A stretch of DNA of 64,000 nucleotides from Polynucleobacter necessarius (GTDB taxonomy: Bacteria; Pseudomonadota; Gammaproteobacteria; Burkholderiales; Burkholderiaceae): contig NZ_LT615227.1 in the NCBI RefSeq assembly GCF_900096755.1, positions 1,145,822 through 1,209,821 on the forward strand. The letters are read 5' to 3'. Below are positions 776-59,745 of this stretch, piece after piece; the stretch's first letter is position 1; each line of letters opens with the position of its first letter. The notes below the pieces were generated by a model that did no database searches, was not told where the DNA came from, and was given only the letters and a program-made list of their open reading frames with translations. The position numbers and the translations under genes were made by a program.

Positions 776-1736
776 TTAGGCAACAGCCAATGGTATGAGG
801 TAGGCGTTACTAAATTCATCGGCCACATGGCTAATGCGCTCCAAGAAGCTTTCAATAAACTCTTCCAGACCTTGTTCAAATACCTCGTCGATGTCAGAAT
901 AATCGAGGCTTGCCTTGAGCTTGCCAAGCAAGCGCCCAATTTCCTTGGATTGCTGGTTCTTCACTTCTGAGATCAAAGGAATCAATTCATTCACGCAGCA
1001 TTTGCTTATTAAAGATCAGTAGTTGAGCTACTTGCTTTGGTGTTACTTGATCGGAATAGATTTGGCGATAGATTTCAAATGCTGAAACTGAGCGCAGTAA
1101 AGCGGCCCAGTGATAGAAATCAAAGAAGTTGCCGTCAGTGCCATCTTCGGAAGTCTTCTTTGCACCCAGATCATTCAACGCGGCTTGATCTTCATACTTA
1201 GTTTGCAGAATACGTGCCGTATTGTCAGCGGGCTCTAATAGAGTCCCTACGCTAATAAAGTAAAAGGCTTCATTCTTGAGCATTGTTCCATAGAGAACAC
1301 CTCTGAAAAGATGGCAGCGGTGCTTTACCCATTCTAGCAATCTGCTAGGGTCGGCTTGATGACGCGCCTCTAAGATGCGCTGCAACTCAAGCCAAGTAGT
1401 GTTTTGTGTTTCCTACACCTTAGACGTAATCTTTCCGCGGATGACGCGCGCATTTTCGCGAGCGGCATATAAGCACGAAACAATGCTTGAGGGATTGCTG
1501 GTTTCATAAATCATGAAATCCAAAACATTTTCACGATTGATTACGTCATATTTACTGAGGAATGCTTCTTCTAGCTTAGAAATCGTCAGCAATTTTTTCC
1601 AGCTCTGCTCTAAAAACTCTGCTGGCTGAGGAAGTAGGGATGTTTGATGGTTGACGTCGAGCATGCGGGCAGTATTTTCTACGCGCTCGGTGTAACGGGC
1701 CATCCAGTAAAGACAATCAGCGGTACGACTTAACAT
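776..1736 (-). pseudogene. Alpha-E (DUF403) domain protein, broken
   Basis: The alpha-helical DUF403/alpha-E family normally runs about 310-320 residues and is encoded between an ATP-grasp and a transglutaminase gene, as here. The start 'MLSRTADCLYWMARY' at 1736 is typical. The frame stops at a TAG at 1413-1415, followed in the same frame by 'ETQNTTWLELQ'. The family has Trp at this place, so the change is most simply TGG to TAG. Near 990-1000 the frame is lost again after 'LLIFNKQ' and resumes in another frame at 'NELIPLISEV', consistent with a short deletion. Two independent lesions argue for true loss. Overall span matches the family length. Confidence 0.88.
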
Positions 1737-1762
1737 TTTCTCTAGTTCCTCTTACTCTTCTC

Positions 1763-3182
1763 TCACTCTTCCAATACCCGGGTATCTTTAGTTCCACCGC
1801 CTTGAGAGGAGTTCACCACTAAAGAGCCTTCTTTGAGTGCAACCCTAGTTAGCCCGCCCGGCACCATCTTGATGGTTTTGCCAGAGAGCACAAAGGGTCT
1901 TAAGTCAATGTGCCTTGGTGCAATACCAGACTCAACAAAGGTAGGGCAAGTGGAGAGCGCTAATGTAGGCTGTGCAATATATTTATCTGGATTGGCAATG
2001 AGATGAGTTCTAAATTCTTCAATCTCTGCTTTGGTGGATGCTGGGCCAACCAACATGCCATATGCCATAGCCGCCAGCGCCATGCGTAAGCTTTACTACT
2101 AACTTTTCCAAATTGGCCAAGGTGTATGCCAAGTCATCGGTCTTGCGACATTGAAATGTGGGAACGTTGTTCAGAATTGGCTTTTCACCAAGATAAAACT
2201 CAATCATCTCGGGAACGTATGGGTAGATTGACTTGCCATCAGCGATACCGGTGCCAATCGCATTCGCTAAAGTGACATTGCCTGCGCGATGTGCCGATAG
2301 TAGCCCAGCAACACCAAGAGTGGAATCTGAGCGGAATGCCAAGGGATCCAAAAAGTCATCATCGACGCGGCGATAAATTACATCTACTCTTTCAGGGCCC
2401 TGGGTGGTACGCATAAAGACTTGCTCGTTCTTAACAAACAAGTCCTTTCCTTCAACCAGCTCTACACCCATCTGTTGTGCGAGATAGCTATGCTCAAAGT
2501 ATGCGGAGTTATACATGCCAGGCGTGAGCACAACCACGTTTGGTTTTTTAACATCGTCCGGTTTAACGGATTTGAGGCATTCCAATAAAAGATCGGGGTA
2601 GTGCTCTACAGGAGCAATGCGATATTTTTGGAAGAGATCAGGGAAGAGGCGCATCATCATCTTGTGGTCTTCAACCATGTAAGACACGCCAGAAGGAACA
2701 CGTAAGTTATCTTCTAATACATAGAATTCACCTTCGCCGGCGCGCACGATGTCGATGCCTGCAATTTGCGCATAGATGTCGCGCGGCACGCTAACGTTGC
2801 GCATCTCTGGGCGATATTGCGCATTGTTATAGATCTGTTCAGCAGGAACAATGCCTGCTTTGATAATTTCTTCGTCGTGATACACGTCGTAGATGAAGCG
2901 GTTAAGTGCCTTGACGCGTTGACGTAGTCCTGCCTCGAGTTGTTCCCATTCTTTGGCGGTAAATATGCGAGGCACTTGATCGAATGGAATGGTTCTTTCG
3001 GACCCTAGATCATCGCCGTAGGCTGCGAAGGTAATGCCAACGCGTCTAAAGATGAGGTCGGCTTCGGCACGCTTGAGACCGATCAGGGTATCGGATTGCT
3101 GCTTTAACCAATTGTGGAAAATTTGGTAGTGGGGACGCGCTTTGCCAGCGGCGTCGAGCATTTCGTCAAAAGGCAATTTCAT
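1763..3182 (-). pseudogene. Circularly permuted ATP-grasp protein, broken by 7-bp duplication
   Basis: This is the circularly permuted ATP-grasp family (DUF404/DUF407, about 470 residues), a predicted peptide ligase. The start is the ATG at 3182 ('MKLPFDEML'); an upstream in-frame extension has no family support. The frame is intact through 'LEDNLRVPSGVSYM', 'YRRVDDDFLDP' and 'VKLTHGAGGYG'. There it shifts, because TGCCATA (plus strand) occurs twice in tandem at 2056-2069. Removing one copy restores 'GGYGMLVGPAS' and a frame that runs to the stop at 1763. It leads the operon with alpha-E and transglutaminase genes. Loss is by a single +7 event, so it is probably recent. Confidence 0.9.
2056..2069. 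repeat. 7-bp tandem duplication (TGCCATA x2) breaking ATP-grasp gene
   Basis: The two adjacent identical heptamers at 2056-2062 and 2063-2069 shift the reading frame by +1. The protein on either side matches the family only if one copy is removed, so the duplication is the lesion. It looks like replication slippage. Confidence 0.85.
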
Positions 3183-3314
3183 AGCTATAAAACTAATGCC
3201 TTTAAAAGGATTGGATTTTGGGATTTGAAGCGGCTTGGTGCTGATTTGCACTATAAAAGTGCATAAATGCTCAAATATTAGCCTCAAGGCCAGTCTACCC
3301 CAATTTTTGGGGAA

Positions 3315-3767
3315 TTAAGCGTTTAAATCGCCTCTAGCGATGCGACCTTTTTGTACTTCCCATTCGCGCTCTTTGGTTGCTGCGCGCTTGTCATGCTGTT
3401 TTTTTCCTCTAGCTAAGCCGATTTCACACTTCACATTCCCTTTGGAGAAGTGCAGGTTGAGTGGTACCAAGGTGTAACCCTTTTGCTCCACTTTACCAAT
3501 CAGCTTGCGGATCTCAATGGCATTGAGCAGGAGTTTTCTAGTGCGAGTGTTGTCTGGAACGATATGGGTAGAGGCTGAGAGCAGAGGGGTAATGTGGCAA
3601 CCAATCAGAAATAGCTCCGCCTTGCGAATGACGACATACGCTTCTTTAATGTGCACGCGACCTGCGCGGATGGCTTTAACTTCCCAGCCTTCCAGCACAA
3701 GCCCTGCCTCGAAGCGTTCCTCGATAAAATAATCAAAGAAAGCTTTTTTGTTATCGACGATACTCAT
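3315..3767 (-). CDS. smpB: SsrA-binding protein SmpB
   Basis: A 150-residue basic protein of normal SmpB length. SmpB binds tmRNA and delivers it to stalled ribosomes for trans-translation. Recognisable blocks are '[17 protein letters not shown]', '[13 protein letters not shown]', '[19 protein letters not shown]' and the basic tail '[15 protein letters not shown]'. The start ATG at 3767 lies only 18 bp from the ratA start on the opposite strand, so the promoters must overlap the neighbouring reading frames. The smpB/ratA divergent arrangement is usual in beta- and gammaproteobacteria. Intact. Confidence 0.97.
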
Positions 3768-3785
3768 ATTTTCTCAAGATCGATT

Positions 3786-4217
3786 ATGGCAGACGTCTAC
3801 AAGACCGTTTTAATTAGCCAATCAGCCGACCGCATGTATGGCTTGGTGACCGATGTCGCCCGCTATCCCGAGTTTCTGCCTTGGTGTGGCGGGGTAGAGA
3901 TTTTTGAGCAAACCGACACTATTCTTGATGCCAAAATCAATATTCATTTCAAGGGCATTACCCAGTACTTTCACACCCGGAACGTGAACCATCGCCCAGA
4001 AACCATTGATATGGTCTTTGTAGATGGCCCGTTTAAGCATTTTTCCGGCCAATGGAATTTCATTCCCTTAAAAGAAGATGCATGCAAAGTGGAGTTCAAG
4101 CTCCACTGGGAATTTAAGAGTGTCATTCTCGACAAGATCATTGGCCCAGTCTTTGGGCACATCGCAGGTACTTTTGTGGATTGCTTTGTAAAGCGTGCTG
4201 AGGACCTATATGACTGA
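3786..4217 (+). CDS. ratA: RatA/COQ10-like START-domain protein
   Basis: A 143-residue START/cyclase-like protein. Family members include E. coli RatA (reported to bind 50S subunits and block subunit joining) and mitochondrial Coq10, which binds ubiquinone. The start is ATG 3786 ('[10 protein letters not shown]'), since the longer open frame upstream runs into smpB. Typical blocks are '[15 protein letters not shown]' and '[12 protein letters not shown]'. Its stop overlaps the rnfH start by 8 bp, so the two are translated together. Which of the two family roles applies is not decidable from sequence; a quinone-binding role is as likely as a toxin role. Confidence 0.9.
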
Positions 4218-4560
4218 CCGCATTCTTGATATTTTCCTTTGTGATGCAAGACAAGGCGAACCAAGCCTTAGACCTTTCAAGCTCATTCTCGGGGGCGGTG
4301 AGTCAGCTACAGTAGGGTTGGCATTGATTAAGGCTGGTTTTGCATTTAGTCCGGATGACCCTGTTTTAGCCAGAAAAGGCTGCTTTGGGGTCTTTGGCAA
4401 GCGCAAGGACTGGGACAGCCCCATTTATGACGGTGATCGCTTAGAGCTTTATTCCCCCTTACTAATTGACCCCAAGACGGTACGTCGCAAAAAGGCCAAT
4501 CAGAACCAGGATGCCAAATTCCAGGCTGCCGCAGCTAAAAGAAAGGCTAGGAGGCTATAA
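4210..4560 (+). CDS. rnfH: RnfH family (UPF0125) protein
   Basis: A 116-residue ubiquitin-like fold protein of the RnfH/UPF0125 family, regularly encoded just after ratA. The start ATG 4210 overlaps the ratA stop. Family blocks are '[29 protein letters not shown]' in separate pieces around residues 48-75, '[17 protein letters not shown]' and a basic C-terminal tail. The function is unknown. Intact and in operon with ratA; guaB follows 37 bp downstream. Confidence 0.9.
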
Positions 4561-4571
4561 TCGGTTTTTGC

Positions 4572-6061
<1,490 letters not shown>

Positions 6062-6107
6062 CAACTAAAAAGCTGAAATTAAAGCTGAATTAAAGACTGA
6101 CCTTTTC

Positions 6108-7718
6108 GTGCACGACAAAATACTGATTCTCGACTTTGGTTCACAAGTAACTCAACTGATTGCTAGACGTGTACGCGATGGACGTGTGTATTCAGAGATC
6201 CATCCTTATGATTGTGATCCAGAGTTGTTCATTCGTAAGTTCATTCAAGAGCAAGGCGGCAAAGGCATCATTCTTTCTGGTGGCCCTAGTTCGGTAACTG
6301 AAGCAGATAGTCCGCGTGCACCCCAAATCGTTTTTGAGCTTGGCGTTCCTGTTTTGGGTATCTGTTATGGCATGCAAACGATGGCTACCCAATTGGGTGG
6401 CGCAGTAGCATCTGCTGAGTCTTTAGGTAAAGCTCGTGAGTTTGGTTACTCTGAAGTGCGTGCACATGGCCACACCAATTTACTCAAGGGCATTCAAGAC
6501 TTTTCGACAAGCGAAGGCCATGGCATCCTAAAGGTATGGATGAGTCATGGCGACTCAGTTACAACTTTGCCGCCATCATTTAAGCTGATGGCTTCAACGG
6601 AGTCTTGCCCAATTGCTGGCATGGCTGACGAAGAACGTCGTTTCTATGCTTTTCAGTTTCATCCCGAAGTAACCCATACCATCCAAGGCACTGCAATCAT
6701 TGAGCGCTTTGTACATGAGATTTGCCACTGCAAACCCGACTGGGTGATGGGTGATTACATTGCTGAGGCCGTAGAGAATATTCGCAAGCAAGTTGGCGAT
6801 GAAGAAGTCATTCTTGGTTTGTCTGGTGGCGTTGACTCTAGCGTTGCTGCAGCCTTGATTCATCGTGCGATTGGCGATCAACTCACTTGTGTATTTGTAG
6901 ATCATGGCCTGCTTCGCTTGAACGAAGGCGATATGGTGATGGAAATGTTTGCGCGCAACTTGGGTGTGAAAGTGATTCGTGTCGACGCTAAAGAAACTTT
7001 CATGGGCGAATTGGCGGGCGTAGCAGACCCAGAAGCAAAGCGCAAAATTATCGGTAAAGAATTTGTGGAGATTTTCCAAACTGAGTCCGGAAAAATCAAA
7101 AACGCCAAATGGCTTGCGCAGGGAACTATTTATCCAGACGTGATTGAATCTGCTGGTAAAGGCAAGAAGGGTGCGCACACAATCAAGAGCCACCATAACG
7201 TTGGTGGCCTGCCTGAAGATATGCATCTCAAGCTACTTGAGCCATTGCGCGAACTCTTTAAAGACGAAGTGCGTGAGCTTGGTGTTGCTTTAGGCTTACC
7301 TCGCGAGATGGTGTATCGCCATCCATTCCCAGGCCCAGGCCTAGGAGTACGTATCTTGGGCGAAGTCAAAGCAGAGTTTGCAAACTTGTTACAACGCGCT
7401 GATGCAATCTTCATTGAGGAGTTGCGCAATACGATCGATGAAGTCAGTCAAAAATCTTGGTATGACCTTACAAGCCAAGCATTCGCTGTCTTCTTGCCCG
7501 TTAAGTCGGTTGGTGTAATGGGTGATGGCAGAACTTACGAATACGTTGTTGCATTACGAGCAGTGCAAACCCAAGACTTCATGACTGCGCATTGGGCTCA
7601 TTTGCCACATGAGTTACTTGGCAAGGTGTCTAACCGCATCATTAATGAAGTGCGCGGCATCAATCGAGTTGTATATGACATTAGCGGAAAACCGCCAGCA
7701 ACGATTGAGTGGGAATAG
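6108..7718 (+). CDS. guaA: GMP synthase (glutamine-hydrolysing)
   Basis: A 536-residue enzyme converting XMP to GMP with ATP and glutamine. The class I amidotransferase domain (about 1-205) has its nucleophile in 'GICYGMQTM' and the His/Glu in 'FQFHPEVTH'. The ATP pyrophosphatase domain has the PP-loop '[11 protein letters not shown]' near residue 240. The dimerisation domain ends in 'PPATIEWE'. The GTG start at 6108 gives '[13 protein letters not shown]', the canonical N-terminus; no ATG fits. It follows guaB on the same strand. Intact. Confidence 0.98.
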
Positions 7719-7748: not shown

Positions 7749-8510
7749 ATGCTTGAGTTACGAGAAGCCTCACTCGCAATCCTAGCAAGTGAAGATGTAC
7801 CAACTAAAGTAAATCAGTTACTTCATTTATTTGATGAATACCAACAGCAACGAGTGACTTTAGACGTTTCTCGTGAGCTTGATTTTCAAGGGCTCACACT
7901 TCCTGGGCGTCCACCAAAGCCAGAATTAGTATTGCCTAAATTGGTTCCCAAGAGAAGGATGGATACGCCCGAAGGTATGGCGGGTTTGTTGCACTCTCTT
8001 ACCCATATTGAATTTAATGCCATGAATTTGGCTTTAGATGCGATTTGGCGCTTTCCTAATATGCCCAAAGAGTATTACGAAGATTGGCTGAAGGTCGCCA
8101 AAGAAGAGGCTTATCACTTTAGTTTGGTAAATGAGCATCTGCATTCACTTGGATTTTCCTATGGTGATTTTCCAGCCCACAATAGTTTGTGGGAGATGGT
8201 CGAGGGAACTACGGATTCTGTGATGGCCAGAATGGCGCTAGTTCCTCGAACGATGGAAGCAAGAGGATTGGATGCGGTGCCCATGATTCGGGATCGTTTT
8301 AAGCAGATAAAAGAAGTTCGTGCCGTTGAGATTTTGGAGATCATTCTCCATGATGAAATTGGACACGTCCTAATTGGTAATCGCTGGTTTAATTTCTTGT
8401 GCACTAAGGATAAGGATGGCGTTTCACCAATTTCTGCTTACAGAGAATTGGCTGGCAGATATCGTGCGCCAGTATTAAAGGGCCCGTTCAATATCGAGGC
8501 GCGTAAGTAG
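7749..8510 (+). CDS. DUF455 ferritin-like domain protein
   Basis: A 253-residue protein of the DUF455 family, predicted to have a ferritin-like four-helix fold. Candidate metal ligands are the Glu/His pairs in 'LTHIEFNAMN', 'AKEEAYHF' and 'LHDEIGHVLIG'. The family is often found beside tRNA-modification or purine genes, but no function is firmly known. Here it follows guaA by 30 bp and precedes the broken radical SAM gene. Intact; start ATG 7749. Confidence 0.85.
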   Translation: MLELREASLAILASEDVPTKVNQLLHLFDEYQQQRVTLDVSRELDFQGLTLPGRPPKPELVLPKLVPKRRMDTPEGMAGLLHSLTHIEFNAMNLALDAIWRFPNMPKEYYEDWLKVAKEEAYHFSLVNEHLHSLGFSYGDFPAHNSLWEMVEGTTDSVMARMALVPRTMEARGLDAVPMIRDRFKQIKEVRAVEILEIILHDEIGHVLIGNRWFNFLCTKDKDGVSPISAYRELAGRYRAPVLKGPFNIEARK

Positions 8511-8555
8511 GCTGGTTTTACAGTTGAAGAGTTAAATCTTCTTGGGGCACAGTCA

Positions 8556-10459
8556 ATGAGCATGAAGGTATTGAGCCTCATCCCTCCTATGACGCAGCTG
8601 AATACGCCGTATCCTTCGACGGCTTCTCTCACGGGTTTTTTGAGATCACGCGGTATCGATGCCGCGCAAGAAGATTTGGCTTTGGCATTAATGCTCAGTT
8701 TTTTCACGCCGGATGGCTTAGATGAGATTCATGATCAAGCGCTCAGCATTGCTGAAGAAGGGCGCAGTGCTAGCGTCAATTTTTTCCTAGATTACTTCGA
8801 CTCTTACCGAGCTACCATTTCACCTGTAATCGCATTTCTGCAGGGGCGCGATAGCACCTTAAGTCATCGCATCAATACCCGTGAGTTTTTGCCGGAGGGC
8901 CCACGCTTTGCTTCGCTTGACGCTTTTGATGAGGCGGATGCTGGAGATTCTTTAGGATGGGCATTTGGTGCCTTGGGCTCGCAGGACAGGGCACGTCATT
9001 TGGCGACCCTTTATCTCAATGATCTTTCAGATGTGCTGCGCGACGCTGTGGATGAGCGTTTTGAATTTGTGCGTTATGCCGAATCGCTTGCCAGTAGCCA
9101 GCCAACGTTTACACCTCTGGCAGATGCCTTGCATGCAAAGCCTACGCTAATGGATTTGCATCTACAAGACTTAACTCATAGAGCAATAAAGCGTCATCAG
9201 CCTGGTTTGGTGTTGTTATCTGTGCCATTTCCAGGTGCCATGTATGCGGCCTTACGAATTGCTCAAACAATTAAAAAAGTTTATCCAGAAGTCAAACTTG
9301 CTTTGGGTGGTGGCTATGTCAATACAGAGCTGCGCGAGTTATCAGATGCTCGTATTTTTGAATATGTTGACTTCATCACACTCGATTCTGGTGAGAGGCC
9401 GCTCTTAGCCTTGTTGGAGCATCTTGATGGCAAACGCTCGGCTGAGCGTTTGGTGCGCACTTTTATGCATAATTCAAAAGGTCGGGTGCAATACCTTAAT
9501 TGGCAAGAACCGGATATTCCTTTTGAGGACGTCGGAACCGCTACGTGGGATGGCTTACCGCTTGATTCATATTTGTCTCTTTTGGATATGCTTAATCCCA
9601 TGCATCGCTTATGGAGCGATGGGCGCTGGAACAAGCTTACTGTTGCGCACGGATGCTATTGGAAAAAATGCAGTTTCTGTGATGTCTCACTTGATTACAT
9701 CTCTCGATACGAAACTGCTTCGGCTAGTTTATTGGTGGATCGTATTGAGCAAATTATTGCTGAGACGGGGCAGACAGGCTTTCATTTTGTAGATGAGGCT
9801 GCGCCTCCGAAGGCGTTAAAGGCCCTTGCGGAAGAATTAATTCGTCGTAAAGTGGTGATTTCTTGGTGGGGCAATATTCGGTTTGAAAAAACCTTCACCC
9901 CGCAATTGGCAGAGCTCTTGGCAAGAAGTGGTTGTATTGCTATGTCAGGTGGTCTTGAGGTTGCATCGGATCGCCCGCTTAATCTGATGAAGAAGGGTGT
10001 TTCGGTTGAGCAGGTTGCCTAAGTTACCAAGGGCTTCTCTGATGCAGGTATTTTGGTGCACGCCTACTTGATGTATGGCTTTCCAACGCAAACCGTACAA
10101 GAGACGGTGGACGCTTTGGAATATGTTCGACAGTTATTTGAGAATGGTTGTATACAGAGCGGATTTTTCCATCGCTTTATTTGTATACGGTTCACTCTCC
10201 GGTTGGTTTAAACCCTCAGGAGTATGGAATTGAATTGTTGCCTTTGCCCGAGATTACTTTTGCCAAGAATGATGTTGCCTTTATTGATCCAACGGGGGTT
10301 GATCACGATGCTTTAGGGCAGGGGCTTAAAAAAGCAATCTATAACTATATGCATGGGGTGGGTTTTGAGATGAAAGCGGATTCGTGGTTTAAAGGTTTGG
10401 GAATTAGCGTTCCCAAGACTACGATCCCTAAAAATTTCATTGAAAAAGCTTTGTACTAA
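8556..10459 (+). pseudogene. B12-binding radical SAM protein, broken
   Basis: A roughly 630-residue protein with an N-terminal cobalamin-binding-like region ('LALGGGYVNTEL' near residue 250) and a radical SAM core with the cluster motif 'CYWKKCSFCDVS' (CxxxCxxC). The reading frame ends at a TAA, 10020-10022, where the same frame continues 'VTKGFSDAGILVHAYLMYGFP', a normal radical SAM block; CAA to TAA is the simplest cause. Around 10180-10190 a 2-bp insertion (TA in TGTATACG) shifts the frame, after which 'TVHSPVGLNPQEYG' continues to the stop at 10459. The total span is consistent with one +2 event. The substrate of this class is unknown. Confidence 0.88.
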
Positions 10460-10524: not shown

Positions 10525-11226
10525 TTGAATTTATCGCGCTGCATATTTATTACATCAGCCGCCTTGGCGCCAGTAGCTTGCGCAGTTTCTTTGCCGTATC
10601 AGCGCGGAACTTCGGTTGCTCAACCAAATCCTGTGCCCGCTATTCGTCCACCACAAGTGGGGCAGGAGTGGACTTATATCAAGAAAGACGCATTTAATGG
10701 CAAGACATTGGGTCTCATCAGGGAGCGAGTAGCTAATATTGGATCATCCATTACGATTAATCGGAGTACTGAGGATGGTGGCATGCTCCCTAGTGAAATA
10801 CAGTCTAAATGGGGGTTTGTTTCCACTGATCCGCAATGGCCTCGCTTGCTAAGCTTTAGTCCAGCGCTGCCTCTTTGGCCTCTCGAGCTGACGAGTTCTT
10901 GGAGTAAGCAATTTAATACTAAGTACGGCTTAGGCGGTTATTCGGATGGAAAGCTCAATTGGCAGGAGTATATGAGTGCGCAAGGATGGGAGGAGATCAC
11001 CGTTCCAGCCGGAACATTCTTGACCTTACGTTATCAAAATCTCATTAACTATGAGAGCGAGGATGACAATAAAGTTGACTGCATCCGCAAAGAAACTATT
11101 TGGTTTGCTCCCGAGATTGGTCGATGGGTTGCACGTGAGGCCTCTGGGTCATATCAAATTCAAGGGCAAATGGGAGTTGCTGTAAGGGAAGATAGCTTTC
11201 AATGGCAACTTACTTCTTACAAGTAA
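10525..11226 (+). CDS. Exported protein of unknown function (first of a paralogous pair)
   Basis: A 233-residue protein I do not recognise as a named family. It starts at TTG 10525 behind the good ribosome site AGGAGA. The N-terminus is a signal sequence ending near 'APVACA'; the Cys suggests a lipoprotein although the lipobox is imperfect. The mature part has 'RPPQVGQEWTYIKKD', 'SKWGFVS', 'LPLWPLELTSSW', 'VPAGTF' and 'WFAPEIGRWV', all repeated in the next gene. The same pattern (intensity of W, G and P, 'PAGTFxTLRYQ') suggests a beta-rich periplasmic domain. Its stop overlaps the start of its paralogue (TAATG). Intact. Confidence 0.75.
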   Translation: MNLSRCIFITSAALAPVACAVSLPYQRGTSVAQPNPVPAIRPPQVGQEWTYIKKDAFNGKTLGLIRERVANIGSSITINRSTEDGGMLPSEIQSKWGFVSTDPQWPRLLSFSPALPLWPLELTSSWSKQFNTKYGLGGYSDGKLNWQEYMSAQGWEEITVPAGTFLTLRYQNLINYESEDDNKVDCIRKETIWFAPEIGRWVAREASGSYQIQGQMGVAVREDSFQWQLTSYK

Positions 11227-11937
11227 TGCGCTTGCGCGCCATTCTTTTATTGCTTGCGCCAGTCCTTCTGGTGGCGTGCATTCCCCTTCGCAACCTTACC
11301 CTGTAGGCGTTGTATTGCCAGCCCCGGCATCCATTCAGCAGGTTAGACCCCCCAAAGTCGGGCAGCAATGGGTTTATCAAGTCCGCAATGTTTTTAACCG
11401 GGAAATTGTTGACACCGTTACAGAGACAGTGGTCTCGGTGGGAAGCGAAGTTCGTATTGCCAGATCCGGTCAAAAAGCGGGCCCCTTGCCTGATGAAGTT
11501 CAGTCACCTTGGGGTTATCTTTTGCAAGATCCCCACTGGAGCCCTCCACAAGTATTTCAGCAGGCGCTGCCTGCTTGGCCTGTTCAATTGAACTCGGCTT
11601 GGTCTAGCTTCTATCGAACCCGATATCAAGTGGTTGGTCGACCGGACTCTTCTTATTATTGGGGGCTGAACTGAACATAACAGCCATTCAATGGGCGCAA
11701 ATTAATGTTCCTGCAGGATCATTTAAAACGCTCAAATATCAAAATGAAGCACCATACTTTGAGAGTAATGATCTGTTTAGAACTGCCAACTATCGCGAAG
11801 AAGATGTATGGCTTGCCCCAGAGATTGGGCGTTGGGTGATTCGTAGGGGGTATGGGCGCTATTTGACGGCTGGGGTGTTCTGGTCAAACGCGTATTGGGA
11901 GGATTATTTGGAGTGGGAGCTCATTTCCTGGAAGTGA
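11226..11937 (+). pseudogene. Paralogous lipoprotein, broken by two frameshifts
   Basis: Tandem paralogue of the preceding gene. The N-terminus 'MRLRAILLLLAPVLLVAC' is a clear lipoprotein signal with lipobox LVAC. The frame is lost directly after the Cys, where TGCAT probably derives from TGCCAT (one C deleted), and continues as 'HSPSQPYPVGVV'. It runs through 'RPPKVGQQWVYQVR', 'QSPWGYLLQDPHW' and 'LPAWPVQLNSAWSS'. A second shift near 11660 (a run of five G where six are needed) leads into 'GAELNITAIQW', 'VPAGSFKTLKYQN' and 'WLAPEIGRWVIR' to the stop at 11937. Both lesions are single-base deletions. Confidence 0.82.
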
Positions 11938-12656: not shown

Positions 12657-13122
12657 ATGACAAATAAACGACCTGCTATCTCCATTACCCGCCGACTTGA
12701 GTTTGACTCAGGTCACCGCATCCCAAATCACGATGGTCAATGTCGTCATCTACATGGGCATCGCTATGCAATTGAGGTAACTCTGACTGGTGAGGTGGCT
12801 GATCATCCTGGTAAGGCCGATGATGGCATGGTGCTGGATTTTGGGGATATTAAAAAATTAACCAATCAGTATGTTGTAGATCTCTGGGACCATGCGTTTT
12901 TAGTGGCCAAAGAAGATGAAGGTTTGGTTGCTTTCTTGGGCAACCTTGCCAAATCATAAAACGGTGATCATGGAGCATGTGCCTACTGTTGAAAACTTGG
13001 CCAATGCTGCTTATGCAATTTTGAAGCCGGTCTTTAGCAAAGCCTTTAGTGGTCGCTTGGAGCTCTCTGCTATTCGTCTCTATGAGACGCCCAATTGCTG
13101 GGCTGATGTTCATCAAAACTAA
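12657..13122 (+). pseudogene. queD: 6-carboxytetrahydropterin synthase QueD, broken by +1 G
   Basis: QueD makes 6-carboxytetrahydropterin from dihydroneopterin triphosphate. Visible are 'LEFDSGHRI', the zinc-binding 'CRHLHGHRY', 'GMVLDFGDIK' and 'DHAFLV'. After 'VAFL' the frame goes wrong and stops after 'GNLAKS'. Removing one G from the run at 12938-12940 gives 'FLATLPNHKTVIMEHVPTVENLA', including the catalytic region, and a frame to 13122. The span is one base more than a multiple of three, as this predicts. The break removes the C-terminal third, including the PTPS-type HVPTxENL block. Confidence 0.9.
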
Positions 13123-14493
<1,371 letters not shown>

Positions 14494-14522: not shown

Positions 14523-15155
14523 GCTCTTGAAGCATTCCTTCTTTAGTGGCGCACTTATTTTGATTGCGCTCACACTTACCGGGGTAGCAATGGCAACTGA
14601 AGAGCCGAAATATTCAATTATCGAAAAAGAACCACCTTTTGAAATTCGATCTTATGCGCCAGTCATTGTTGCAGAGGTTCAGGTTGAGGGAGATTTGGAT
14701 GACGCCTCAAGCCAAGGATTCCGTTTAATTGCTGCTTATATTTTTGGGCAAAATCAAGTCAATCAAAAGATTGCCATGACTGCGCCAGTAACAGTTGAGG
14801 ACCAGGCACCCAAGAGTGCAAAGATAGCCATGACTGCGCCAGTGGGAATAGAGTCCAATGTTGGCAAATGGACTGCGTCATTTGTGATGCCCGCTGAATA
14901 CAGTATGGAGACAATCCCAAAGCCAATGAATCCACAGGTGCAGTTACGCCAAATTCCAGCGCTTAAAAAGCGGTGATTAGCTTTAGTGGTTTTTATAACA
15001 GCCAGAAAGTTGCAGAAAAAACGCTGGAATTGGAGCAGTGGATGAAAGTTCGTAATTTATCTGCTGCTGGCGCGCCTAATTTTGCTCGCTACAACCCGCC
15101 TTGGACGCTACCCTTCATGCGTCGCAATGAAATTATGATTAATTTGCGCGACTAG
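14494..15155 (+). pseudogene. SOUL family heme-binding protein, frameshifted
   Basis: A roughly 220-residue SOUL/HEBP-like protein with a signal peptide (hydrophobic stretch at about residues 17-33, cleavage near 'AMA'). The domain is recognised by 'FEIRSYAPVIVAEV', repeated 'KIAMTAPV' blocks and 'WTASFVMPAEY'. After 'QIPALK' the frame stops; it continues one frame over as 'AVISFSGFYNSQKV' to 'LPFMRRNEIMINL'. The A-run before GCGGTG has five A where six restore the frame. The start overlaps the end of ldcA; a TTG at 14527 is an alternative. One indel only, so either a recent loss or a base-call error. Confidence 0.82.
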
Positions 15156-21384: not shown

Positions 21385-21483
21385 CACGGATAACACCAAA
21401 TCAGAAGCGCGCGCATTCTATGGCGATATTGAATTGATTCGAAAGAATTAAAAAGAAACTTCAAAATAAAGCAACAATCTTAT

Positions 21484-43220: not shown

Positions 43221-43272
43221 GCACAGTCGTTGTATCCTATGTTTTTATCCCCCAAATATTGAGAGTATTGAT

Positions 43273-47876: not shown

Positions 47877-48983
47877 ATGTCAGGCAAAGAAATCATGTTC
47901 ACCCCGGTTAGCCTCGGATCCATTCATTTAAAAAACCGTTTAGTGATGGCGCCACTCACCAGAATGCGCGCAGTTGCCGGCGATGTGCCAAACCCATCCA
48001 TTGGCTAAAAAACATACTACGCACAACGTGCTGGTGCTGGCTTGATCATTACGGAGGCGACACAAATTTCTTCGTTGGGTAAGGGTTACCCGGCAACCCC
48101 TGGAATTTACTCTGCAGAACAAACCGCAGCTTGGAAAGAAATCGTCGAGGCAGTTCATGCTAAAGGTGGTTCGATCGTTGCGCAGTTATGGCATGTGGGA
48201 CGCATTTCCCACTCTTCATTGCATCCAGAGCAGGGCGTTCCTGAGGCGCCTTCAGCAATTGCTGCAGCCGGTCAAACTTACGGTGCTGATTGGAGGTTGC
48301 ATGGCTATGAGACGCCAAAAGCAATGAGTCATCAAGATATTGCGCGCTTGCTCAAAGAGTTTGAAGCTGCCGCTCAAAATGCAAAAGCTGCAGGATTTGA
48401 TGGCATTGAAATTCACTCAGCCAATGGCTACTTGTTGGATCAGTTCTTGCAAGACAAAACCAATCAACGTACAGACGAGTATGGTGGATTGATTGAAAAT
48501 CGCCTGCGCCTGTTGGGTCAAGTTATTGAAGCGGTAACTAAAGCATTCGCAAGCGACCGAGTAGGGGTGCGCCTTTCCCCGTACGGTACTTTTAACGACA
48601 TGAGTGATAGTGATCCAGTGGCATTGTTCACTGCTGCAATTACAAAGCTAAATGACTACAACTTAGCTTACGTTCATATGATTGAGCCACGTTCAACCAG
48701 CGCTGGAGGTGGCGACCAGACAAATGAAGATGCCCCAATCACATCAGAAATGTTCCGCACTGCCTATCAAGGGAAATTTATCACTGCTGGTGGTTATGAC
48801 CAGGTCATGGGTGAAAAGGTTTTAGAAGAGGGCTTCGCTGACGCGGTTGCTTACGGACGTCTTTATATTTCTAATCCAGATTTGGCAGAGCGATTCCAAC
48901 GGGGGGCTGCTATTAATGCATATAATCGCGCTACTTTTTATGGCGGCAATGAAGTAGGTTATACCGACTACCCCAGTCTTTAA
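47877..48983 (+). pseudogene. Old yellow enzyme (NADH:flavin oxidoreductase), in-frame stop from double insertion
   Basis: An FMN ene-reductase of 368 codons, NemA-like. The start ATG 47877 gives 'KEIMFTPVSLGSIHLKNR' and 'MAPLTRMRA'. A TAA at 48006-48008 interrupts 'NPSIG*KTYYAQRAGAG'. Relatives read NPLAKTYYAQRA: CCAT is duplicated (47994-48001, +4) and the A-run at 48007-48012 appears two bases long (+2), which together keep the frame but create the stop. Downstream 'AQLWHVGRISH' with active-site His/Asn-type residues and 'DGIEIHSANGYLLDQFL' is intact to 48983. Confidence 0.85.
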
Positions 48984-49248: not shown

Positions 49249-49785
49249 TTAGCCATTCGCTTTATTCAATATGCGGCGAAGTGTATTGTCCTTAATGACG
49301 TAATGTTGCCATAAACCTGCCAAGGCGTGGATGCCAATTAGAAAGTACAGTGAGTTTCCTAGAAATTCATGTATACCTTCAACTACTTTTTTCATCTGAG
49401 GATCAGGGGTTACTAGTTGAGGCCAAACCAAGCCAAAGAAGTGGATTTCCTTGCCGCCATACTGAAAATATAGGATGCCAAAGATAGGTGAGATTAAAAG
49501 CAGGGCGTACAGAAGTCAGTGCATTGCCTTAGCTAGAGATACAAATAAAGGCTTTGGGTTTGTAGGCTCGGGTACCCCACAAGTTAAGCGAATCATGAGA
49601 CGAAGTGCCATCGCTATAAAAATCACCTGTCCAATGACGCCATGGACTGTTTTGCAGAGCTCACGAGGCTCGCTTCCCTTAGGAAATTGCCCTTTGAGTT
49701 CAATCACTATAAAAGCGGCTACAACGAGGAGGAATACCAGCCAGTGAAAGAAGATGGAGGCTGGATGGTATTTGGTTCTGGTCAT
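49249..49785 (-). pseudogene. Cytochrome b561 with in-frame TGA
   Basis: A membrane di-heme cytochrome b561 of about 178 residues. The N-terminus 'MTRTKYHPASIFFHWLVFLL' carries the first His ligand in FHW, followed by 'CKTVHGVIGQVIF'. A TGA at 49516-49518 follows 'SLAKAMH'. In the same frame comes 'LLYALLLISPIFGI', 'YGGKEIHFFGL' and 'IHEFLGNSLYFLIGIHALAGLW' (second His pair). The normal residue after AMH is Trp, so TGG to TGA. Everything else is open. Confidence 0.9.
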
Positions 49786-50096: not shown

Positions 50097-50898
50097 TTAT
50101 TTCTTGCTGATTGATGGTGTGGCTGCATCCATCTGTTGGGTTAAGTTGTTTTTGAGTGCCACTAAGTTTCTAGCCTCAATTCGAATGACGCCACCTCTTG
50201 GACTGTCAATATCGGCAATTAAAAAAGAAAGATACTGAAATAACAAAAGGGAAGATCATGAAGAGGCCAATATTCTTCTCAAAATTACGCGCACCAAAGC
50301 CCACTAAAAGATTGGCGCAGGTAGCAATGGCTGCCATCAATGCCCATGCTGTAAACGGTATGCGATTCCACCAGGCAGCCTGTACATAGCCTTGAGAATT
50401 TAAAACGTCATTCATACCTGAGGCAACTAGGGCTGTGACTGGGTTCGCTTGGGCTCTCACCGCCGGAACAATTTCATTCCAAAGGGCGGTTTGCAGTTGA
50501 TCGGTTTTATCGCGAATCTCTTGAATCTTTTCTGAGCTCTGCTTGGAATAAAACAGGATGCGTTGATCTACGTACTTTAGGGGTAATTCCTTGGTGGCGG
50601 CAGATGCTTTTGGAGGCAAAAGATCGGCTCGCAAGTATTCGGTTCCAATGGCATTTGCCTCGCCTTCCTCAAAAATCTCCCGCTGATCATGACGGTCAAT
50701 AGCCATTGAGAAGGTGAAGCCAATAATTAAGGCCAGCAAGGTTAAGGTGGCTGTCTGAATGATGCCGAGATCCTCAGAGGTCTCAGTATCTTTGGTGCGG
50801 TAGCGACTCAGTCCAGCGTGCCCAAACCAAACAGCAAAAGCAAATACGAGGAAAGAAATTCCAAATACGGCAAGAGGGTAGTTGAGGATATGAGTAAT
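50097..50898 (-). pseudogene. DUF4239-like membrane protein, start codon and frame lost
   Basis: A roughly 266-codon membrane protein with segments 'YPLAVFGISFLVFAFAVWFG', 'TATLTLLALIIGFTFSMA' and 'FTAWALMAAIATCANLLVGFG'. 'IGFTFSMAIDRHDQRE' and 'EANAIGTEYLRADLLP' resemble the bestrophin-like DUF4239 family. The frame upstream reaches the lldD stop, TAA at 50899-50901, directly followed by ATT ACT CAT; an ancestral ATG there, now ATT at 50896-50898, would give the expected N-terminus. At 50221-50226 an A-run (plus strand) is one base too long; removing it restores 'FLIADIDSPRGGVIRIEARN' and a stop at 50097. Confidence 0.75.
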
Positions 50899-52049
50899 TT
50901 AAAAAGTCCCTGGATACAAGATGTCTTTAGTGACGTTCTGGATATCGCGATGGCCTGTAAATGCCATAGTGATGTCCAGTTCGTTATGAATGAGCTCTAG
51001 GCACTTGGTAACACCAGCCTCACCCATAGCGCCCAAACCATATAAGAATGGGCGACCAATCATCGTGCCGCGTGCACCTAAGGCCCAGGCTTTAAGAACG
51101 TCTTGACCTGAGCGGATTCCGCCATCTATCCATACTTCGATATCTTTGCCAACTGCATCCACAATTCCAGGCAGCGCTTGAATGCTAGAAACAGCGCCAT
51201 CTAATTGACGTCCGCCGTGGTTGGAAACAATTAAAGCATCTGCTCCCGAGTTTGCCGCTAAGCGCGCATCACCTTCATCCAAGATTCCTTTGATGATGAG
51301 TTTGCCGCCCCAGACAGAGTTTTTTTGATCCATTCCACATCACCCCAATTGAGGCCCGGATCAAATTGTTCTGCAGTCCAAGAAGAGAGTGAAGACATGT
51401 TGCCGACACCTGTTGCATGACCAACAATATTACGGAAGGTTCTGCGAGGAGTCATGGCCATGCCTAAGCACCAGCGTGGCTTGGTCGCCATATTGATCAT
51501 GTTGGCAATAGTCAGTTTAGGCGGCGCAGAGAGTCCACTCTTTAAGTCTTTATGGCGCTGACCTAAGATTTGTAGATCTAAGGTCAATACAAGTGCGGAA
51601 CAGTTAGCTGCCTTAGCGCGCTCAATCAGGCGCTCAATAAAGCCACAGTCTTTCATGACATATAGTTGAAACCAAAATGGTTTGGTTGTGCGCTCTGCTA
51701 CATCCTCAATAGAGCAAATGCTCATAGTGGATAAACAAAAAGGCACGCCAAACTTCTCAGCAGCTTTGGCTGCCAAAATTTCACCATCAGCATGCTGCAT
51801 TCCGGTAAGGCCGGTAGGGGCTAGCGCAACTGGCATGGTGACCTCTTGTCCAACCATGGTTGTCTTAGTTGTGCGATTAGTCATATCAACTGCTACACGC
51901 TGACGCAACTTAATCTTTTGAAAATCGGACTCATTAGCGCGATAGGTTGACTCAGTCCATGAGCCAGAATCGGCATAGTCATAGAACATCTTAGGGGTGC
52001 GTTTTTGATGGAGGACCCGTAAGTCTTCTATATTGGTAATGATTGCCAC
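50899..52049 (-). pseudogene. lldD: FMN-dependent L-lactate dehydrogenase / alpha-hydroxy-acid oxidase, frameshifted
   Basis: A TIM-barrel FMN enzyme of about 381 residues. From ATG 52049: 'MFYDYADSGSWTESTYRANE', 'PVALAPTGLTGMQHADGE', 'PFWFQLYVMKD', 'ALVLTLDLQILGQRHKD'. The frame is lost after 'WGDVEWIKK' and resumes as 'WGGKLIIKGILDEGDARLA', with 'SNHGGRQLDGA' and 'WIDGGIRSGQDVLKA' (catalytic His/Arg region) to 50899. At the break CAGA is duplicated (51311-51318, plus strand) beside a run of seven T; together +5 explains the net shift. Confidence 0.88.
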
Positions 52050-53213: not shown

Positions 53214-54351
53214 ATGCCAGGCTTGCTCCCCAACGTTGATCCAGATGGTTTGTTGGAGTTCTCGGTTGTCTATACAGACCGTTCCCTCAATCACATGTCT
53301 GAAGAGTTCAAACGCGTCATGGTGGATATCTCCAGCGTGTGTTGAAGGATGCGTATAACACAAGCTCTGCGGTCATCGTTCCTGGTAGCGGCACTTTTGG
53401 CATGGAGGCAGTTGCTCGTCAATTTGCCAACAATCAAAAATGCTTAGTCTTGCGTAATGGCTGGTTTAGCTATCGCTGGACTCAGATTTTTGATTTAGCC
53501 AATATTACTGGTGATGTGACTGTTCTCAAGGGTCATCAATTAGAGGATGCAGCTCAGGGCGTATTTGCGCCAGCCCCGATTGAAGAGATGGTTGCTTTCA
53601 TTAAGAAAGAAAAGCCTGCGGTGGTGTTCGCACCTCACGTAGAAACTTCGGCTGGAATCATTCTTCCTGATGATTACCTTAAAGCAGTAGGTGAGGCGGT
53701 TCGCTCTGTAAATGGTTTATTTGTATTGGACTGCATTGCATCTGGTGCGATGTGGGTAGATATGAAGGCTTGCAATGTGGACGTATTAATTACTGCCCCA
53801 CAAAAAGGCTGGAGCAGTTCACCATGCTGTGCTTTGATCGCGCTCGTGAGCGCATCGATGCAACCCAAAGCAGTAGCTTCTCTATGGATCTGAAGAAGTG
53901 GTTGCAGATTATGGAAGCCTATGAAAAGGGTGGCCATGTGTATCACACAACGATGCCGACTGATGCGCTCAAGATTTTGCGCAACGTTATGAAAGAAACG
54001 CAATCCCTTGGCTTTGCGGCTCTGAAAGCCAAGCAGGTGGAATTGGGTAACAAGGTTCGTGAATTATTGGTTTCTAACGGTTATAGCTCTGTATCTGCCA
54101 AAGGCTTTCAGGCTCCTGGCGTAGTGGTTAGTTACACCAAAGATCCAGATATTCAATCTGGTAAGAAGTTTATTGCCCTAGGTCTGCAAACTGCAGCAGG
54201 TGTGCCGCTGCAATGTGATGAGCGTCCAGACTTCCGCACCTTCCGTATTGGTTTATTTGGTCTAGAGAAATTAGCTCACGTAGATCGTACCGTTGGACAT
54301 TTGGCTGCTGCATTAGAGAAGATCACTGAGTCTGAAGCACAACCAGCGTAA
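53214..54351 (+). pseudogene. Class V aminotransferase (alanine-glyoxylate type), broken
   Basis: A PLP enzyme of about 378 residues resembling serine/alanine-glyoxylate aminotransferases. From ATG 53214: 'MPGLLPNVDPDGLLEFSVVY' and 'HMSEEFKRVMVDIS'. GT is repeated three times at 53337-53342; removing one restores 'VLKDAYNTSSAVIVPGSGTFGMEAV'. The PLP lysine is in 'APQKGWSSSP' near 53800. A second shift (net -1) at about 53840 precedes 'RERIDATQSSSFSMDLKKW', then 'YHTTMPTDALKILR' to the stop at 54351. The two shifts account for the total length. Confidence 0.88.
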
Positions 54352-55365: not shown

Positions 55366-56308
55366 ATTGATCCCTCTTAATTGAGGGGTTCGGCACTATC
55401 GAAGCGAAGTCATCGGATTTTTTGAGGTCCGGTGACTTTTTTGTTGGCGCATCATTTCGCACTAGTAACCACATCGCTGCAATAACCAAAGTCATTCCGC
55501 CAATTTGAGTCCAGGTAATTGGCTCCGACAAAATTAAATACCCCATAAAGAGATGGTGGAGACCGGGCCCAATATTCCCGCTTGTGCAACGAGCGGCGAT
55601 CCAATTCGATTGATCGCAATCATAATGAGCAACATTGGAATGACGGTACACAGGCTCGCATTGAGCAGGCTAAACCAGTAGATCTGTGGAACTTGCTCAA
55701 AGATGGCAGTTGGGTTGTGTAGAGAAGACTGCAGCAGACTTAAGATAGCGGATGCTGAGCTCGCCAGTACAACCAAGCGGATGCTACCAATGCGTTTAAC
55801 CATTTCTCCGGCGCCAATCATATAGGCCGCATAAGAGCAGGCATTTCCAAAAACTAGGAGCATGCCCAGCCAGGCACTGATTCCGGTAGAGCTTGCATCC
55901 TGAATGAAAACAATAAACACGCCAATGTAGCCGACGATCAGGACGTACCACTGGAGGTGTGAGATATAAAGCAATGCGCTCAAGCCCAACCGAAATGTAT
56001 TGAAGACCTAAGAAGTCAATATAACTAGAAAGAAAGTAACCCAAGAACCCCAGGAAAAATAACTTAGCACGATCAAGCCACGTGATCGGGCTCATCAACT
56101 TTCTGCGAGATTCCCACCAGAATATTGCCCAAAACATTGGGAGGGCCATCAGCATGCGTAATGCTAAAAGCGTTTCGGCATTAGCGCCATAACCAAATGC
56201 CAGCTTAACCAAAATGGCTTTTCCTGAGAACAGCATTGACCCAACTCCGGCCATCAAAATGCCATAGAGGTAAGGCTTGCGGTTATGTGCTTTGCTGATT
56301 GACTGCAT
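55334..56308 (-). pseudogene. EamA/DMT family transporter, broken by at least two frameshifts
   Basis: A ten-helix permease. From ATG 56308: 'GILMAGVGSMLFSGKAILVKL' (in part) to 'YISVGLERIALYLTP'. The frame then shifts near 56000 and reads 'ALLYISHLQWYVLIVGYIGV', 'SAWLGMLLVFGNACSYAAYM' and 'LIMIAINRIGSPLVAQAG'. Another shift near 55575 precedes 'FMGYLILSEPITWTQIGG' and 'VIAAMWLLVRND'. The readable end may lie at 55334, inside the small exported gene on the other strand, or earlier. A small deletion near 56000 also seems likely, since the connecting part is short. Confidence 0.83.
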
Positions 56309-56314
56309 ATGGAT

Positions 56315-57196: not shown

Positions 57197-57258
57197 GGGG
57201 ACAGTATGTTCTAAATTGAATGTTGTTTAGTTATTTTAAGAGAGAGTATGCTGATTGT

Positions 57259-58677: not shown

Positions 58678-58678
58678 C

Positions 58679-59498
58679 TTATTCGGCGACTTTTGCCCCT
58701 TGAATATTATGGCGCTTCATAGCATCCGCCACAAATCCAGACTGCTTTAGTTCTGCAATGACATTGCCTAGATAAGCAGTTGTGTCTTCGTAATTTGACC
58801 TTGCTTTCGGAACGCCGATAGCCTGGTTAATGACCATAAAGCGTCCGGGTAGCATACGTAAACCTTCGTAGCGTTTTGCATCACTCTCTAGCTGCTGCTT
58901 TACACCTGCAGCCACCGTTACCTTTGCCTGATATGAAGTCATCTACAACAGCCTGTGAACTAGCGGCACGCAATAGTGCGGCGTTTTTAATTTCACGCGT
59001 TAGGTAAAGGTCGTAGGCGCTTCCCTTGCCGACTACGATTTCATTTCCAGAAATATCAACCTCTTCGTTGGCCTTTAATGAAGAAGAAGATTTCACCATA
59101 TAGGCGCCTTCAATCTGAATATAGGCTGGCGTATAGCTGATATCTGTGCCACGCACTGGATCAATCGCAACGAATACCAAATCAATCTCACCAGTTTTTA
59201 CTGCATCAACCGTTGCTCCTGCGGTTTTAAATGGAATGAGTTGCACTGGCTTAGAAATTCGTTTCCCAATTTCATTGGCGATATCAATAGTTACACCATA
59301 TAGATTTTTGGTATTCGGATCTTCGTTCGCAAGAATAGGATTTCCCAAATTGATGCCGACACGCAAAGTGCTGGTCGGAACAAAAGAAGTGAGGGCTGCA
59401 GGGCTGATAGATTTCATAACGAGAGATTTTTGGCTAATGGCGATTTGAGGGCAACACAGAAGCGTTAGAGAAAGCACTAGAGGAGATATGAATTTCAT
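58679..59498 (-). pseudogene. Periplasmic amino-acid-type binding protein, broken by +1 G
   Basis: A family 3 extracellular solute-binding protein of about 272 residues. From ATG 59498: signal peptide ending near 'QIAISQ', then 'TLRVGINLGNPILANEDPN', 'YGVTIDIANEIGKRI', 'VDAVKTGEIDLVFVAIDPVR' and 'VVGKGSAYDLYLTR'. In 'ISGKGN' an extra G (ACGGTGG for ACGTGG) shifts the frame; without it the protein continues 'VAAGVKQQLESDAKRYEGLR' to 'KRHNIQGAKVAE'. No permease or ATPase gene is adjacent. One lesion. Confidence 0.88.
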
Positions 59499-59511
59499 TA
59501 AAAGATGAGAC

Positions 59512-59538
59512 AAAAAAACCGCGGCGGACCGCGGTTTT
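59512..59538 (-). terminator. Rho-independent terminator on minus strand
   Basis: AAAACCGCGG (59515-59524), loop CGGA, CCGCGGTTTT (59529-59538); read on the minus strand it ends in seven T. It lies after the small membrane protein gene (stop at 59556) and directly before the binding-protein start at 59498, separating the two. Confidence 0.9.
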
Positions 59539-59555
59539 GTCTACAGCGCTAAAAA

Positions 59556-59745
59556 TTACTTCTTAGCGTCAGGAGCAGGAGCAGGAGCAGCAGGAGCATC
59601 TTTCTTGGCCTCTTCCATGTGCGCAGCTTCTGCACCATGCTTTTCGCCACCCATATCAATGTCGCCATCACCTTTGAGGAGTAAATAGGCTGTGGCACCA
59701 ACTAAGACTAGTACCATGATGATTGATGATTGAACGGTTGCTCAT
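59556..59745 (-). pseudogene. Small single-helix membrane protein, broken by 7-bp duplication
   Basis: Without the second GATGATT copy (plus strand 59718-59731), the frame from ATG 59745 reads 'MSNRSIIMVLVLVGATAYLL' then 'LKGDGDIDMGGEKHGAEAAH' and ends in an Ala-Pro repeat and 'DAKK' at 59556, 60 residues. The restored protein has one N-terminal membrane helix and an acidic/Ala-Pro tail. As written, the ATG frame leaves after eight residues. The strong terminator downstream shows it was a real transcription unit. No known family. Confidence 0.8.
59718..59731. repeat. 7-bp tandem duplication (GATGATT x2)
   Basis: Two adjacent heptamers, 59718-59724 and 59725-59731, near the 5' end of the small membrane protein gene. 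The length of the full span (190) minus seven is exactly 61 codons. Confidence 0.85.

Follow-up and report, generated by a model that had tools for sequence, protein, structure and literature searches.

The window analyzed here, a stretch of 64,000 bp from the genome of Polynucleobacter necessarius (assembly GCF_900096755.1, contig NZ_LT615227.1; G000:C1:1145822-1209821 in our comparison set), is undergoing gene decay. Its genes appear to be broken by insertions more than by deletions, and the insertions appear to be mostly exact tandem duplications of 1-12 bp that arose de novo and needed no pre-existing repeat. We interpret these observations as gene decay combined with a duplication mutator which is specific to this lineage (G000) among the lineages compared, whatever its cause, and we give this interpretation a probability of about 0.8. 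Mass pseudogene formation and genomes of about 1.7-1.8 Mb are already known in endosymbiotic Polynucleobacter, as described in the available part of PMC11253213. The new element is the insertion-rich, microhomology-free duplication spectrum. Among the papers listed by literature searches aimed at this point, none has a title or opening of the abstract that presents short tandem duplications as driving bacterial gene decay, and such an account may nevertheless be in print.

The G000 genome is a single contig of 1,705,691 bp with a completeness of 99.98%. For one intact protein of the window, the best matches that carry a name are Polynucleobacter records. The closest relative found, G036, is larger (1,921,418 bp), is about 89% identical and has its genes intact: conserved open genes cover 90% of its 100-kb stretch. 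G036 looks free-living. The window is collinear with G036, and 63,946 of its 64,000 bases are alignable. Sixty-seven G036 genes were projected onto the window, and 65 were retained after excluding one that runs past the window edge and one located on an island absent here. Genome G014, with 7.7 kb aligned, was left out of the comparison. Family names of broken genes are those of their intact G036 counterparts, while the names guaA, guaB and smpB come from a first-pass annotation of the same DNA. Coordinates are window positions unless the prefix G000:C1 is given.

When a gene was scored as broken if it carried at least one frameshift or premature stop relative to G036, 25 of the 65 comparable genes were broken, with 48 lesions, in agreement with the first-pass annotation, which had counted about 25. 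A stricter rule, which considers only lesions within 3-95% of the gene and the net frame of each lesion cluster, leaves 22 of the 65. Across 244 kb, breakage affects 60 of the 177 genes with good coverage (the 48 uncovered genes were left out), and a looser rule gives 80 of 252. In relatives, the stricter rule flags 7/76 genes in G004, 6/75 in G002, 5/59 in G024 and 9/60 in G033; these flags probably reflect alignment noise and wrong gene ends. Higher fractions are found in G023 (19/60) and in the reduced genome G017 (21/47).

The distribution of the lesions indicates that the decay is real. Among genes kept by G017, a genome reduced independently, only 3 of 27 are broken in the window, compared with 22 of the 38 remaining genes (p=0.0002). 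Furthermore, 48 lesions placed at random would be expected to hit 31.8 genes instead of the 25 observed (P=0.004), so that the lesions are clustered. Because lesions avoid the genes kept by G017 and because they cluster, the decay is genuine and read error is unlikely; gene decay in the window is thus confirmed. The first-pass annotation had considered nonsense substitutions and multi-base duplications harder to explain as read errors than homopolymer indels; the case against read error rests on the gene-retention test and not on lesion shape alone.

Indels were polarized along 234 kb of aligned sequence. Before filtering, the G000 branch showed 121 insertions and 70 deletions (191 events), and the G036 branch 4 and 7 (11 events). 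When flanks were required to be at least 75% identical, the ratio of insertions to deletions was 94:47 on the G000 branch and 4:4 on the G036 branch, with 8320 and 7517 substitutions, respectively. Exact tandem duplications made up 51 of the 64 filtered insertions of at least 2 bp on the G000 branch, and 47 of those 51 leave fewer than three copies; in other words, they arose from single-copy sequence. In a second region, where about 62 kb of the 100 kb chosen could be aligned and 88 raw events were counted, the ratio was 10:5 and 9/9 insertions of at least 2 bp were duplications; its G036 branch showed one insertion, a duplication. The window alone, analyzed with five outgroups and unfiltered, gave 35:27, with duplications in 20/23. 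In all, 26 duplications are listed for the window.

In broken genes, duplications (63) outnumber both other insertions (11) and deletions (33). The sizes of the duplications in these genes fall smoothly (26, 18, 8, 5, 3 and 3 for 1, 2, 3, 4, 5 and at least 6 bp), and the overall excess of 3-bp duplications stems from intact genes, where seven of the eight polarized duplications are of 3 bp and one is of at least 6 bp, all of them in frame by definition. The number of bases that match past the copy is at the level expected by chance (49 of 89 duplications have none, against 49.1 expected; P=0.20), and single-base duplications are mostly changes from one to two or from two to three copies (23/27). 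Hence, duplication seems not to depend on repeats or microhomology. Deletions behave differently: the 30 deletions of at least 7 bp lie between short repeats, with a mean of 4.20 bp where chance predicts 0.67 bp, and those of a single base fall preferentially in runs (P=0.005). As duplications are repeat-free and deletions repeat-bound, two processes must be distinguished, of which only that producing deletions resembles classical slippage. Intergenic indels are also raised on the G000 branch (22, compared with 6 on the G036 branch), which suggests that the indel rate itself rose, beyond mere tolerance of lesions.

We then compared this spectrum with those of other lineages. PPGSP2 (LT606947), which we take to be an endosymbiont, is a second decaying Polynucleobacter, with 49 of 138 examined genes broken. 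PPGSP2/STIR1 (P. necessarius from Euplotes) resembles G000 in genus, reduced genome, abundance of fresh pseudogenes and collinear background. However, its filtered insertions and deletions are 32:43, with four tandem duplications of at least 2 bp; per total indels, the frequency of such duplications is 4/75 in PPGSP2 and 51/141 in G000 (p=1.7e-7). An unfiltered version of this comparison (6 of 51 long insertions duplicated) was discarded as it was inflated by misaligned stretches. PPGSP2 also differs in having a raised synonymous rate in broken genes (0.161, compared with 0.093 on the sister branch), which G000 does not. The branches of the cultured isolates G066 and G067 gave ratios of 2:10 and 5:7, with one duplication, and six pooled triplets of 21-kb loci gave 13:17, again with one duplication.

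Outside the genus, the Sodalis symbionts SOPE and S. glossinidius are comparable in that mass inactivation occurred mainly via small frameshifting indels. There, internal insertions account for 19% and 13% of disrupting mutations, respectively, and internal deletions for 34% and 40% (available part of PMC3499248); Sodalis is therefore deletion-rich, whereas G000 is insertion-rich. A deletion bias of small indels is reported for bacteria in the accessible portion of PMC10292909, and Sodalis fits it. Altogether, the duplication mutator is specific to the G000 lineage among those compared.

Several observations weigh against this interpretation. Polarization relied on G004 alone, and 117 of 319 events could not be polarized and were dropped; the flank filter removed a further 50 events from the G000 branch and 3 from the G036 branch; and 35 filtered intergenic indels are unpolarized. 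PPGSP2 is one comparison lineage only, and it does not differ significantly from G000 in the fraction of long insertions that are duplications (4/8 compared with 51/64, p=0.08). G004, the outgroup, is itself insertion-rich in 20 kb of unfiltered alignment (12:7), but none of 8 are duplications. Lastly, the single-event frameshifting insertions of at least 2 bp found in G017 and G023 (two and one, respectively) are all tandem duplications; hence, the duplication process may not be wholly absent in these genomes.

The cause of the duplications was sought in repair genes. Eight families were examined: xseA and seven others (mutS, mutL, polA, Ku, IMS/dinB, dnaQ and recJ). In G000, xseA is split: it carries an exact duplication of 5 bp and, at codon 213 of 404, a stop that arose by TGG>TAG. 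The gene is open in all other genomes inspected (7/7 and 4/4, PPGSP2 included), so that G000 is the only one of 12 with a split copy. Across the genus, a match to xseA is found in 169 of 186 genomes, and in 140 of 144 of good quality; in eight genomes besides G000 the match comes in two or three pieces, most of them outside the matches listed, and further broken copies may exist.

Loss of exonuclease VII (ExoVII), the product of xseA, is the trigger that we favor, as a tentative hypothesis whose chances of being right are rather low. ExoVII excises quinolone-trapped gyrase, according to the available part of PMC12004951. By removing trapped gyrase from DNA, the enzyme would keep topoisomerase-held breaks short-lived; without it, a polymerase might extend the 3' end at a held break by one to several bases, and subsequent resealing would leave a short exact duplication. 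If the topoisomerase itself resealed the break, neither Ku nor homology would be required, and falling sizes could result. A version of this model involving polymerase extension and topoisomerase resealing was reportedly once proposed for phage T4. A fuller scenario, in which ExoVII loss following loss of mismatch repair unmasks microhomology-independent duplication born at breaks or topoisomerases, so that genes decay mainly by small gains, is a little more doubtful still.

A known likeness is trapped topoisomerase II, in yeast and in TOP2A-mutant tumors, where short exact duplications arise where no repeat existed; in yeast, trapped Top2 gives rise to de novo duplications via fill-in and end joining (available text of PMC11477040). 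The duplications there are of 2-4 (some 5) nt and depend on end joining, while G000, a bacterium, shows 1-12 bp with a smooth fall and has no Ku. Thus, duplications that are exact, de novo and microhomology-independent are found here, and sizes mainly of 2-4 bp are not.

The ExoVII hypothesis has further difficulties. There is no size peak at 4 bp, which a wholly filled gyrase overhang of 4 nt would be expected to leave, and the yeast process needs the end joining (PMC11477040, available text) for which Ku is absent here. In addition, xseA has been inactivated alongside dozens of other genes, dinB among them, and may have been lost as a passenger. Three congeners of 2.5-2.8 Mb (G003, G025 and G170) have no xseA match, and two of them, G003 and G025, keep mutL, unlike most. 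In the latter pair, whose background is different, 7 indels were counted over 17 kb; two of these are of 2-12 bp and neither is a tandem duplication, too small a sample for G003 and G025 to serve as a natural replicate.

That the mutator is real and has another cause has slightly better than even odds; this possibility overlaps with our interpretation, whose probability covers the mutator and not its origin. Loss of dinB (Pol IV), an altered gyrase or topoisomerase, another repair gene or conditions within the host might be responsible. The dinB gene (G000:C1:1252189-1253400) has a stop and a 35-bp deletion. A dinB remnant is found in G017 too, whose single-event frameshifts comprise 4 insertions and 14 deletions, which speaks against dinB as the cause, although both G017 insertions of at least 2 bp are tandem duplications. 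More generally, only seven families besides xseA were covered, so that many candidates remain. Loss of the Pol I flap nuclease was discarded: polA is open, and its three private changes (five genomes compared) were not linked to the active site. Another PolA-family match, a weak one of 27 bits, is present at G000:C1:1682368-1682664 and was not found in the seven relatives searched. Both dnaQ and recJ are open; recJ has an altered 3' end, with an 18-bp insertion in a TTTGGC hexamer array near the end of the gene. Ku was found in none of 41 genomes, and Ku-type end joining was consequently rejected as the joining activity.

If the proposed mechanism is right, the usual deletion bias of small indels is reversed, and the genes of this probable symbiont decay mainly via gains of a few bases. 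Here, a lineage at the very start of decay, which can be compared both with an intact relative close to it and with a second lineage decaying in parallel, shows a spectrum opposite to that bias. It thereby becomes testable whether the first repair gene to die determines the indel spectrum of early decay, and xseA/ExoVII becomes a concrete candidate suppressor of short tandem duplications in bacteria.

A more conventional explanation is that selection has relaxed in the usual way in a young endosymbiont and that ordinary replication slippage is exposed by missing mismatch repair; the first-pass annotation had proposed slippage or weak mismatch repair as the cause. In support of this view, genes decay, mutS and mutL are missing in G000, as in MutS/MutL-deficient mutators, and both classes of deletion described above lie at repeats or runs. 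Absence of mismatch repair is, however, widespread: none of the eight genomes tested has a mutS match or mutL above cut-off, and mutL is above cut-off in 9 of 41 genus genomes and in none of the other 32, with no match in G000. The available part of PMC5644125 reports that mutS and mutL are missing in all 20 PnecC genomes examined. Since both genes are also missing in intact-looking members, their loss predates this decay. Relatives that lack the repair genes, or are close to such genomes, do not show the spectrum (G036, G066 and G067), and decaying PPGSP2 is deletion-leaning with few duplications. Duplications are exact and independent of repeats, insertions lie mostly outside homopolymer runs and are not concentrated in runs or repeats as single-base and longer deletions are, the synonymous rate is not raised, and intergenic indels are. 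We thus rejected slippage with mismatch-repair loss as the cause, and regard the conventional explanation as quite unlikely. Mismatch repair would have been lost earlier, in intact ancestors, leaving small loops unrepaired across the clade as a background and not as the cause of the mutator.

The age of the decay was examined through substitutions. The synonymous rate in broken genes is equal on both branches (0.0890 for G000 and 0.0901 for G036). The dN/dS-like ratio on the G000 and G036 branches is 0.049 and 0.021 in broken genes and 0.042 and 0.022 in intact genes (117 intact genes over 244 kb), and the excess amounts to roughly 3% of the branch. Broken genes are thus similar to intact genes in dN/dS, which indicates that selection is relaxed in both and that the breaks are young. 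Breakage relative to G036, equal synonymous rates and a barely raised dN bear out the relaxed selection and recent decay proposed in the first-pass annotation. It must be conceded that the amino-acid excess does not differ significantly between broken and intact genes (p=0.23), which tells against our interpretation, and dN/dS was dropped as a means of separating them.

The lineage would have recently ceased to need about one-third of its genes, and G000 is probably a young obligate endosymbiont of a single-celled host. Alternatively, it might be a free-living or host-associated, non-endosymbiotic Polynucleobacter in decay: GC content is not lowered and AT drift is not seen (2635 GC>AT and 3108 AT>GC changes). 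A genome of 1.71 Mb, smaller than that of its closest relative, with massive pseudogene formation matches, however, endosymbiotic Polynucleobacter, which have genomes of 1.7-1.8 Mb and more pseudogenes (PMC11253213, available part), and makes the alternative improbable.

Finally, that many lesions are sequencing or assembly errors is very improbable: the small amino-acid excess of broken genes and an undetermined base in a hexamer run immediately left of the window would fit such errors, but the avoidance of G017-kept genes, the clustering, the position of insertions mostly outside long runs, the completeness of the genome and the restriction of intact genes to in-frame duplications (in frame by definition) do not. 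To our knowledge, exact copies of 2-12 bp are not a usual type of sequencing error.

The features of the window are listed in Table 1. The stops named in the first-pass annotation, in the Alpha-E, fdhA-like (three), cytochrome b561, radical SAM and acyl-CoA dehydrogenase genes, are all present, and so are its tandem duplications of 2, 4, 7 and 11 bp, of which the last breaks no gene. Its statement that the remaining lesions are single-base indels or tandem duplications proved too narrow, as deletions of 5 to about 71 bp also occur. Among the core genes that it described as untouched, those like guaA, guaB and smpB are undamaged, while tadA and apbC were not identified in our analysis. Nonsense changes had been described as exclusively G:C>A:T. 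In the window this is so in 9 of 9 cases (one needs two changes); the spectrum of the branch would lead one to expect 60%, which gives 9/9 a probability of 0.01. Over 244 kb, however, only 13 of 18 stops are of this kind, while 3 are double changes and 2 are transversions (another 2, poorly aligned, were left out), and a G:C>A:T nonsense signature was accordingly rejected. An A:T>G:C transition cannot create a stop codon.

Table 1. Broken genes, duplications and contrasting intact features of the window.
Feature	Position	Strand	Lesions and remarks
Alpha-E (PF04168), broken	776..1736	-	TGG>TAG at 1415; 17-bp deletion at 1000
Circularly permuted ATP-grasp (PF14403), broken	1763..3254	-	exact 7-bp tandem duplication ~2055-2069; start ATG>ATA
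Undamaged core block: smpB-like, two small genes, guaB-like, guaA-like	3315..7718	.	contrast to broken genes
Exact 11-bp tandem duplication	4572..4597	.	intergenic, directly upstream of guaB-like gene
In-frame exact 3-bp tandem duplication	6224..6229	+	inside intact guaA-like gene; same process, retained gene
DUF455 (PF04305), broken	7749..8552	+	CAG>TAG at 8508; 6-bp tandem duplication at 8405
Radical SAM, broken	8556..10459	+	CAG>TAA at 10020; 2-bp tandem duplication at 10184
No Pfam match, broken	11202..11937	+	insertions of 2, 1, 5 bp; 1-bp deletion; stretch poorly conserved
QueD/PTPS, broken	12657..13122	+	1-bp duplication at 12938
SOUL heme-binding, broken	14527..15155	+	1-bp deletion at 14965
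RlmJ/RsmJ-type methyltransferase, broken	15152..15954	-	insertions of 1, 2 bp; deletions of 17 bp and ~71 bp (junction 15554-15556)
DUF3047, broken	20683..21469	+	deletions of 21 and 5 bp; late CAA>TAA at 21449
DUF3305, broken	26972..27495	+	11-bp deletion; 1-bp duplication at 27478
DUF3306	27492..28072	+	1-bp deletion in A-run close to gene end (28068)
4Fe-4S ferredoxin-type, broken	28084..30181	+	two 2-bp TG tandem duplications (28222, 28957)
Nitrate_red_del-type chaperone, broken	30174..30824	+	1-bp duplication at 30272; 1-bp deletion in T-run at 30686
fdhA-like molybdopterin oxidoreductase, broken	31222..34201	+	stops at 31399, 31882, 32537; 1-bp duplication at 31905
Cytochrome b561 / formate dehydrogenase gamma-like, broken	35163..36222	+	8-bp deletion at 35652
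ABC transporter ATPase, broken	36507..37271	-	two 1-bp deletions, two 1-bp duplications
In-frame deletion junction, net 204 bp vs G036	37559..37576	.	near-identical short direct repeats; gene otherwise open
CoA-transferase family III, broken	40186..41374	-	insertions of 1, 1, 2 bp
Acyl-CoA dehydrogenase, broken	41387..42556	-	CAG>TAG at 42286
FMN oxidoreductase (Oxidored_FMN), broken	47877..48983	+	exact tandem duplication of 4 bp at 47998; insertion of 2 bp at 48011
Cytochrome b561, broken	49249..49785	-	TGG>TGA at 49518
Bestrophin-like, broken	50097..50706	-	1-bp insertion in A-run (50226)
FMN_dh, broken	50899..52049	-	5-bp insertion at 51316, no exact tandem copy
No Pfam match, broken	53214..54351	+	2-bp tandem insertion 53337-53342; 13-bp deletion between repeats
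EamA transporter, broken	55377..56308	-	tandem duplications of 5 and 2 bp; deletions of 29 and 24 bp
Solute-binding protein family 3, broken	58679..59513	-	1-bp insertion ~58915
Exact 4-bp tandem duplication	59724..59731	.	near 3' end of reported span; outside the 65 genes

Of the 25 broken genes, the solute-binding protein gene is the weakest case: the stricter rule also flags it in G004, G002, G024, G033 and G023, and G036 may be the genome whose frame is unusual. Scans of the window for tRNAs and with Rfam (gathering threshold) gave no matches. Positions 43219-43267 mark the site of an 11.8-kb island with 12 listed genes that is found in G036, G004 and G002 and is absent here and in G024, G033 and G023. 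A deletion of this segment in G000 was considered and rejected: G024 has much the same junction sequence as the window, and the absence of the island is probably ancestral.

Hexamer arrays of at least three copies occur three times in 244 kb of G000 and are not found in 300 kb each of G036 and G004. A CCCCCG hexamer run occupies window positions 1-20, at the end of a transglutaminase-like gene, and the undetermined base lies beside it (G000:C1:1145821). In G017, the fdhA-like stretch equivalent to window positions 31444-32198 matches in inverted orientation, in place.

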